The translations under genes and the position numbers were made by a program. Positions 25,578 through 27,336 of a stretch of 64,000 nucleotides of DNA are shown here, one piece after another. The notes under the pieces were generated by a model that saw only the letters and a program-made list of their open reading frames with translations, was not told the origin of the DNA and did not search any database. The stretch is from Burkholderia sp. BCC0506 (lineage in GTDB: Bacteria > Pseudomonadota > Gammaproteobacteria > Burkholderiales > Burkholderiaceae). Within the stretch, counting starts at the first letter, position 1. Each line of letters opens with the position of its first letter. The stretch lies in NCBI RefSeq assembly GCF_902833145.1, contig NZ_CADFEN010000003.1, positions 496,001 through 560,000 on the forward strand, in the 5' to 3' direction.

Positions 25578-26744
25578 TCAGAACAGGTTCAATTGCATGT
25601 CGTCGCGCGACTTCGCGCCGGCGGCACGAACCGCAACACGCGGCGCCGGCACCTCGGCAGCCGGCGCACCGCTGAACCGCGACAGGTCGAGAATGCCGTT
25701 CGTGCGCTCGTTCAACCCGAGGCGCTTGACGGCCTGGCGAAAGCGCTGCCGCAAGAGGTCGGCCCAGATCCCCTCGCCCTTCATTCGTTTCGAGAAATCC
25801 GAGTCGTAATCCTTGCCGCCGCGCATGTCGCGCACGCGGTTCATCACGCGCTCCGCACGATCGGGAAAATGCGCGGCAAGCCAGTGCTTGAACAGCGGCG
25901 AGACCTCCCACGGCAACCGCAGGATGATGTAGCTCGCATGCGTGGCACCGGCTTCCGCGCACGCCTCCAGCACGCGCTCCATGTCGGGCTCGGTGACGAA
26001 CGGAATCACGGGTGCGATGCTCACGCCGACCGGCACGCCCGCCTCGCGCAGCGCGCGGATCGTGCGCAACCGCCGCGCCGGGGTGGCCGCGCGCGGCTCC
26101 AGCGTGCGCGCGAGCTCGGCATCGAGCGTCGTGATCGTGACCGCCGCCATGACCTGCCCGCGTTCGGCCATCGGCGCGAGCAGGTCGAGATCGCGCTCGA
26201 TCAGCGACGATTTCGTGATCGCCGCGAACGGCAGCCCACGATCGTGCATCACCTGGATCACGCTGCGCGTGATGCGCAGGTCGCGCTCGACCGGTTGGTA
26301 TGCGTCGGTGTTGACCCCGAGCGCGATCGGCTCGGGTACGTAGCGCTTGCGCGAGATCTCGCGCTCCAGCAGTTCGGCCGCGTTCACCTTCGCGTAGATG
26401 CGACTTTCGAAATCGAGCCCGGGCGACAGCCCGAGATAGCTGTGCGTCGGCCGCGCGAAGCAGTAGATACAACCGTGCTCGCAGCCGCGATACGGATTGA
26501 GCGACACGCTGAACGGAATATCGGGCGACTGGTTGCGCGTCAGGATGCTCTTCGCCCGTTCCTCGAATACCTGCGTACGCAGCGGTGCGGGGAAATCGGC
26601 ATCGTCGGACTCGTGCGTCCAGCCGTCGTCCACCGCTTCGCGCTGCGCGATTTCGTATCGCCCCTGCAGGTTGTCGACCGCACCGCGCCCCTTGCGGGGC
26701 ACGGGCGGCGCTACCGGAAATTCGTTGTCGGACCGATCGTCCAT
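25578..26744 (-). CDS. SOS-type radical SAM protein, PA0069 family, with clamp-binding-like tail
   Basis: 388 residues from the chosen start. The radical SAM CxxxCxxC is in GCEHGCIYCFA near residue 85, followed by TKSSLIERDLDLL and TITTLDAELARTLEPR, as in the PA0069/Rv2578c and spore-photoproduct-lyase-like group. The last five residues are QLNLF, which fits the sliding-clamp motif QLxLF. The promoter at 26780-26808 puts RNA start near 26773, so the in-frame ATG at 26780 cannot be used; 26744 (MDDRSDNEFP) or 26756 (MGGHMDD) must be. No function is established here; DNA repair is an inference. Confidence 0.88.
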   Translation of the reverse strand: MDDRSDNEFPVAPPVPRKGRGAVDNLQGRYEIAQREAVDDGWTHESDDADFPAPLRTQVFEERAKSILTRNQSPDIPFSVSLNPYRGCEHGCIYCFARPTHSYLGLSPGLDFESRIYAKVNAAELLEREISRKRYVPEPIALGVNTDAYQPVERDLRITRSVIQVMHDRGLPFAAITKSSLIERDLDLLAPMAERGQVMAAVTITTLDAELARTLEPRAATPARRLRTIRALREAGVPVGVSIAPVIPFVTEPDMERVLEACAEAGATHASYIILRLPWEVSPLFKHWLAAHFPDRAERVMNRVRDMRGGKDYDSDFSKRMKGEGIWADLLRQRFRQAVKRLGLNERTNGILDLSRFSGAPAAEVPAPRVAVRAAGAKSRDDMQLNLF

Positions 26745-26760
26745 GTGCCCACCCATTCGC

Positions 26761-26800
26761 CTGCGCCCAATACTGTACATTTATACAGTATTGGGCGCAG
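26761..26800. repeat. 40-bp near-perfect inverted repeat around the LexA box
   Basis: CTGCGCCCAATACTGTA and its perfect complement, 17 bp each, separated by CATTTA. The inner part is the LexA-type box; the outer 10 bp of each arm (CTGCGCCCAA/TTGGGCGCAG) go beyond what LexA needs. It would also form an RNA hairpin if read through from the lrp-type gene, but has no T-run. Confidence 0.85.
26771..26790. promoter_or_regulatory. LexA (SOS) box
   Basis: TACTGTACATTTATACAGTA matches the CTGT-N8-ACAG consensus with the favoured TA flanks on both sides. It covers the -10 element of the promoter for the leftward radical SAM gene, the position where LexA represses by blocking RNA polymerase. PA0069 of Pseudomonas aeruginosa is, to my memory, also a LexA target. 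Confidence 0.85.
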
Positions 26801-26808
26801 CATGCCAA
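26780..26808 (-). promoter_or_regulatory. Sigma-70 promoter of the radical SAM gene
   Basis: On the minus strand TTGGCA (26808-26803), a 17-bp spacer, then TATAAA (26785-26780). Both hexamers match consensus at 4-5 of 6 positions with ideal spacing. The -10 lies inside the LexA box. RNA should start at about 26773. Confidence 0.7.
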
Positions 26809-26847
26809 GGGCGGGATAAAGGGCCCGACACACGGGCCGCCGGCACG

Positions 26848-27336
26848 TCACTCGCCGACGGAGATCGTCAGGGTCTCCTTGATTTCCTCCATCACGACAT
26901 AGCTCTTCGACTGCACGGCGCCGGGCAACTGCAGCAGGATGTCGCCGAGCAGTTTCCGGTAGTCGGCCATCTCGCCGATCCGCGCCTTGATCAGGTAGTC
27001 GAAATCGCCGGACACGAGATGGCATTCGAGCACCTCGTCGATCTTCATCACTTCCCGGCGGAATTGCTCGAACATGTTGCCGCCCTTGTGGCCGAGCGTG
27101 ATCTCGACGAACACCAGCAGCGCGGCCCCCAACTGGCCCGGGTCGACCCGCGCGTGATAGCCGGTGATCACGCCGTCGCGCTCCATGCGCCGCACGCGCT
27201 CGATGCACGGCGTGACGGTCAGTCCGACCTGTTCCGCGAGATCTTTCATCGCCATCCGGCCATCGTCCTGAAGCAGTTTCAGGATGCGCCGGTCGAGCTT
27301 GTCGAGCGAGCGTACGGGCTGACGTTGCGTTCTCAT
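26848..27336 (-). CDS. Lrp/AsnC-family regulator, likely of dadA
   Basis: 162 residues, the normal Lrp size. N-terminal HTH: LDKLDRRILKLLQDDGRMAMKDLAEQVGLTVTPCIERVRRMERDGVI (residues 10-58); C-terminal RAM domain from ALLVFVEITLGHKGGN to TLTISVGE with VSGDFDYLIKARI. It lies next to and divergent from dadA, the usual arrangement for the alanine- or leucine-sensing regulator of D-amino-acid dehydrogenase. The frame opens at 27372, but MRTQRQPVRSLDKLDRR is the family start. Confidence 0.92.
   Translation of the reverse strand: MRTQRQPVRSLDKLDRRILKLLQDDGRMAMKDLAEQVGLTVTPCIERVRRMERDGVITGYHARVDPGQLGAALLVFVEITLGHKGGNMFEQFRREVMKIDEVLECHLVSGDFDYLIKARIGEMADYRKLLGDILLQLPGAVQSKSYVVMEEIKETLTISVGE

Follow-up and report, generated by a model that had tools for sequence, protein, structure and literature searches.

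A minus-strand gene in a 64,000-nucleotide stretch of Burkholderia sp. BCC0506 DNA (the window; contig NZ_CADFEN010000003.1, positions 496,001 to 560,000) raises the question of what a radical S-adenosylmethionine (SAM) enzyme would do with a LexA box across its promoter and a sliding-clamp-binding motif at its C terminus. The coding sequence (25578..26744) specifies a 388-amino-acid protein of the PA0069 family, and a preliminary description of the locus had read it as an SOS-induced, clamp-tethered enzyme with a suggested role in processing DNA lesions. The reading favored here, at a probability of roughly two in three, is that of a LexA-repressed SOS enzyme that docks onto the clamp and reverses or modifies lesions at replication forks or gaps. 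Literature is cited by PubMed Central number, and each cited paper is represented by excerpts.

To examine the tail across the family, 268 sequences were collected, 188 from genome searches (including the window copy, L001) and 80 named sequences found with two internal peptides, a search blind to the tail. One identical pair leaves 267 distinct sequences, and all close relatives were retained; 3/16, 3/89, and 13/111 of the matches of three genome searches, plus all matches below the cut-off, lie outside the set. As the sequences are related, the counts that follow are not independent events. The C-terminal QLNLF, which had been noted as a fit to QLxLF, was confirmed by translation as residues 384 to 388 (25581..25595, minus strand). 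At the DNA level, Q-L-x-L-F with TRR directly after it is matched at three places in the genome, and only that of the radical SAM gene is a real gene end; the other two were rejected, one being followed by TGG, with no stop, and one ending a 48-codon frame that has no start codon.

Within the last 20 residues of the 188 sequences, 135 tails carried Q[LMI]x[LMI][FLW], a further 37 carried Qxx[LMI][FLW], 8 had hexapeptide forms, and 8 had no motif, four of these ending in QLxLI. A strictly terminal motif was present in 143/188; shuffling the last 30 residues 500 times gave a mean of 0.47 and a maximum of 3. The 80 sequences found without regard to the tail gave 75 pentapeptides and one hexapeptide, with no motif in four. 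These alignment-free counts carry the weight, since MAFFT may favor lining up the glutamine; in its alignment of all 268, Gln384 was present in 268 and Leu387 in 262, and Cys88, Cys92, and Cys95 of the radical SAM cluster were each present in 268. The alignment of homologs suggested in the preliminary description thus has the tail motif as near-universal. The aligned pentamer matched Qxx[LMI][FLWIM] in 254/268, and the 14 that did not match are mostly hexapeptide-like (QLGLGF in three, QMALDL, and QMGLDF). Position 3 of the 219 strictly terminal pentapeptides was most often S (n = 72) or D (n = 34), the residues of the classic QL[S/D]LF.

The natural clamp motif is given as Q-aliphatic-x-[L/M]-[F/L], or the same with one extra residue before the last (PMC11139829). 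Under this strict rule, applied to the last 25 residues, 179 pentapeptides and 7 hexapeptides passed (186/268), compared with 2 of the 437 open reading frames (ORFs) that neighbor the gene in the 80 named loci. The relaxed form Qxx[LMI][FLWIM] was found in 251/268 family members versus 4/437 neighboring ORFs and was strictly terminal in 219 of 268 versus 0 of 437. Ahead of the motif lies a variable linker (residues 358 to 383; 25596..25673, minus strand) that is modeled with low confidence and, measured from Phe357 to Gln384, spans 5 to 60 residues across the 268 sequences. The tail evidence draws its strength from a motif that is nearly fixed although the linker before it is free to vary.

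SOS proteins often turn over quickly, and a hydrophobic C terminus can serve as a degron; the tail might on these grounds be a degradation signal or a structural element and no clamp ligand. This was judged very improbable, as the motif is followed by 1 to 75 further residues in 39/268 sequences, the linker varies in length, and the permitted changes (most commonly L/M at position 2, S/D at 3, L at 4, and F/L at 5, plus the hexapeptide forms) follow published clamp rules (PMC11139829). Conserved to the same degree as the catalytic cysteines, the clamp motif hints at the enzyme's place of action and opens its function to direct testing.

The promoter proposed earlier was recovered by direct reading of the minus strand: a -35 element, TTGGCA (26808-26803), a 17-nucleotide spacer, and a -10 element, TATAAA (26785-26780), which lies within the LexA box TACTGTATAAATGTACAGTA (minus-strand reading; 26771..26790). 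This arrangement was retained in 11/11 checked loci of the genus. An automated promoter scan had no entry in 26500-27000; its rule requires a final T in the -10 element, and TATAAA ends in A. Translation likely starts at ATG 26744 rather than at ATG 26780 within the box. The box claimed in the preliminary description is an exact CTGT-N8-ACAG, the single such site in the window; sites with one mismatch numbered 11 against 9.5 expected by chance, and so only the exact box was counted. The longer TACTGT-N8-ACAGTA occurs without mismatch at three places genome-wide and at nine with up to one mismatch. One-mismatch LexA-like boxes in the same genome adjoin imuB (L291), dinB (L292/L299), and uvrA (L287); the names imuB and uvrA come from translations read by eye, and both polymerase genes have a Pfam IMS match as well. 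The DinB of this genome ends in ...GQFLLFDDESPAP, outside the strict clamp rule, and its ImuB contains QAVLF. The other two perfect TACTGT-N8-ACAGTA boxes are at L285 (contig C8, about 11251), beside a 159-amino-acid ORF followed by an ORF that by eye is recombinase-like, and at L286 (contig C20, about 36189), beside a 116-amino-acid ORF. Close to a further LexA-like box, L290 (contig C5, about 563367), an ORF encodes the string MCTNYVAPGED, and we take its product to resemble an SOS-response-associated peptidase.

At least 150 nucleotides of upstream sequence were available for 267 of the 268 family members. An exact CTGT-N8-ACAG was found upstream of 77/267 (20 shuffles: mean 0.6, maximum 2), and an exact alpha-type GTTC-N7-GTTC was also found in 77/267 (mean 2.5, maximum 6). 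The Xanthomonas-type box was found once in the 267 and the Gram-positive-type box in none (0/267), so that 155/267 family members have an exact box of at least one of the four types. The radical SAM gene therefore has the conserved promoter LexA box expected of a LexA regulon member. PA0069 presumably belongs to the Pseudomonas aeruginosa SOS regulon and Rv2578c, we assume, to that of mycobacteria. In print, splB is a predicted member of the alpha- and beta-proteobacterial LexA regulon, with many Burkholderia tabulated (PMC3323433), LexA control of splB is reported in other groups too (PMC8565304), and the Streptomyces venezuelae LexA regulon includes a radical SAM gene (PMC9380542). The splB of the SOS literature is apparently the PA0069 family. 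Because LexA control of splB had already been published (PMC3323433), the regulatory half of the earlier reading was known; what was gained is that box (155/267) and tail (across the 268 examined) extend through the family.

A larger perfect dyad with 17-bp arms and a 6-nucleotide center (26761..26800) encloses the LexA box. Flank complementarity at 8 or more of 10 positions was found in 17/77 family members with an exact box versus 0/8 other LexA-like boxes of the same genome. The outer arms vary between species yet remain complementary; in 13 rows picked for complementarity, double changes occurred at 10/17 pairs and G-U was rare, which favors a dyad at the DNA level, or template switching at a quasipalindrome, over an RNA hairpin. 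The dyad loci are L001-L008, L127, L128, L189, L190, L199, L200, L124, L208, L165, and L247; the dyads of L199 and L200 precede T-runs and are terminator-like.

The earlier assignment to the PA0069/spore-photoproduct-lyase-like group of radical SAM proteins was borne out. Against NF033668 (PA0069 family) the protein scored 470.4 bits, above the curated cut-off of 360, and against NF038135 (Rv2578c family) it scored 238.9 bits, below the cut-off of 430; its Pfam match is Radical_SAM. The CxxxCxxC formed by Cys88, Cys92, and Cys95 (26460..26483, minus strand) is the expected [4Fe-4S]/SAM site. The fold nearest to the predicted model is that of spore photoproduct lyase (PDB 4FHC, 4FHE, 4FHF, 4FHG, 4K9R, and 4RH0), and the model has the partial barrel of that enzyme with CxxxCxxC. 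Matches to PDB sequences (eight pentatricopeptide repeat proteins and one response regulator) were weak and were dropped.

Closest fold, together with Tyr94 between the second and third cluster cysteines in 268/268, could indicate a spore photoproduct lyase proper, repairing 5-thyminyl-5,6-dihydrothymine made by ultraviolet light. That lyase needs a hydrogen-donor cysteine, Cys140 in the solved enzyme (Cys140/141), and the bacteria concerned are not known to form spores. No conserved cysteine was found in the alignment outside the cluster, the best such column reaching 100/268 (no residue-by-residue structural mapping was made), and a search of PDB sequences with the family profile did not recover the lyase at E 0.01. 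An SOS-controlled "photolyase" of this kind, as proposed for splB, which is labeled a photoreactivation enzyme (PMC3323433), therefore seems quite unlikely. Of the lesion-processing idea, the nearness of the fold to this lyase stands, whereas the lyase's donor cysteine has no conserved counterpart. It is likewise unlikely, if rather less so, that the protein is a clamp-docked modifier of protein or nucleic acid (a polymerase, the clamp, or the nascent strand) that reverses no lesion; against such a modifier are the fold, nearest to a DNA-repair lyase, and LexA boxes of two motif types.

For the favored reading, a SAM-dependent lesion-processing enzyme at the clamp, we infer the following course. 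LexA would repress the gene, and DNA damage would lead to LexA cleavage and synthesis of the enzyme. The C-terminal tail, presumably flexible, would dock the enzyme onto DnaN, as similar motifs do for translesion polymerases, at stalled forks or post-replicative gaps. There a 5'-deoxyadenosyl radical may serve to undo or alter damage to the exposed template, for which a base crosslink is one candidate. What the sequence shows is the box, the family, the predicted fold, and the conservation of the tail; clamp binding and lesion processing are predictions. More tentatively, and at somewhat less than even odds, the family could be a widespread SOS-induced, clamp-tethered group that reverses polymerase-blocking crosslinks in a replication-coupled manner, an error-free counterpart of the mutagenic polymerases with the same LexA control and docking motif. 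Should this hold, the SOS response would include a clamp-coupled activity in which radical chemistry reverses lesions directly.

Relatives outside the family were also compared. Eighteen further records were fetched; that of Legionella adelaidensis (QLDLF plus four residues) is a PA0069 member, leaving 17. The four Actinomycetota relatives, all of them with a tail, end in QLTLL, QLRLL, QEPLF, and QESLF, a Gemmatirosa relative ends in QLSLGI, and three Clostridia end in QLSFF, EQLGF, and QQSLFD. L293 (Subdoligranulum) was left out of the tail judgement, as its frame ends before the tail. The 17 also include SplB-like radical SAM genes from two gut phage records, L280 and L298 (clamp-like tails QMSLFE and QQMTLADFM; the phage contigs are unverified), and in L276, on the Runella slithyformis plasmid pRUNSL02 (conjugative type), a tail-less SplB-like gene lies directly before a UvrD-type helicase gene.

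Several observations weigh against a clamp-docked SOS enzyme acting on lesions. The strict rule fails in 82/268 tails, 71 being off at position 2 or 5 and 11 otherwise; the misses mostly have a non-aliphatic position 2 (Gly or Gln) or Ile/Trp at position 5, and several such changes lower binding in tested peptides (PMC11139829). Among the 17 outside relatives only QLTLL, QLRLL, and QMSLF satisfy that rule, and no tail was found in three Bacilli, one Runella, and two "mobile pair B" proteins, so the tail is not universal among SplB-like proteins. In 112/267 family members no exact box of the four searched types lies upstream. The QLNLF of UmuC binds the clamp in a partly different manner (PMC3716654). 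From residue 361 the mean predicted local distance difference test score of the tail is 48-56, with the N terminus and cluster loop also low. A DNA substrate is suggested by the modeled fold and the regulation alone. Finally, no conserved repair neighbor besides rnhB was found: an RNase HII (rnhB)-like motif lies within 1200 nucleotides downstream in 18/264 loci with enough downstream sequence (including L039, L047, L060, L134, L239, L245, L257, L261, and L266), and when the 437 neighboring ORFs from 80 loci were clustered, the groups were small, the largest of the 16 listed covering 11 loci.

In the window, the same-strand upstream neighbor encodes an Lrp/AsnC-type regulator and the opposite-strand downstream neighbor a TM2-domain protein. 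The genome is 7.29 Mb, and the named locus that matched best in the profile search is from Burkholderia ubonensis. Family members above the cut-off were identified in 89/274 class genomes and 111/299 phylum genomes (overlapping samples). Seven of 14 named control genomes were matched, one above the cut-off, and Escherichia coli was not among the seven.

Compared with spore photoproduct lyase, the window family shares the nearest fold and the radical SAM cluster but has no conserved non-cluster cysteine, no sequence match, and an added clamp tail. To the splB/PA0069 family (NF033668) the protein belongs by curated score and by LexA control (PMC3323433, PMC8565304), and excerpts from the literature on LexA regulons carry the family as splB or "radical SAM protein", with no tested function and no mention of the tail. 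Regulation and family were therefore already known, while no bacterial paper joining SplB-like radical SAM proteins to a clamp-binding motif was found among the matches listed from the open-licence literature. The sister Rv2578c family (NF038135), from which its score excludes the window protein, includes the Tsukamurella protein ending in QESLF. Archaea offer a suggestive parallel: in some of them SplB-like genes adjoin NreB. The related protein NreA bears a motif for PCNA binding and confers protection from mitomycin C, and a speculative role in crosslink repair has been put forward for the archaeal SplB-like proteins (PMC4929162). That link to the sliding clamp would run through a neighboring gene with a possible PCNA-interacting protein motif; in the window it is the enzyme itself that carries the clamp motif. 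The closest parallel in the tail is with Pol IV and Pol V, which use a short clamp motif, the E. coli UmuC having the identical string (357-QLNLF-361; PMC3716654), and the dinB and imuB genes of this genome have LexA-like boxes; the difference is that the window tail would tether a radical enzyme instead of a polymerase.
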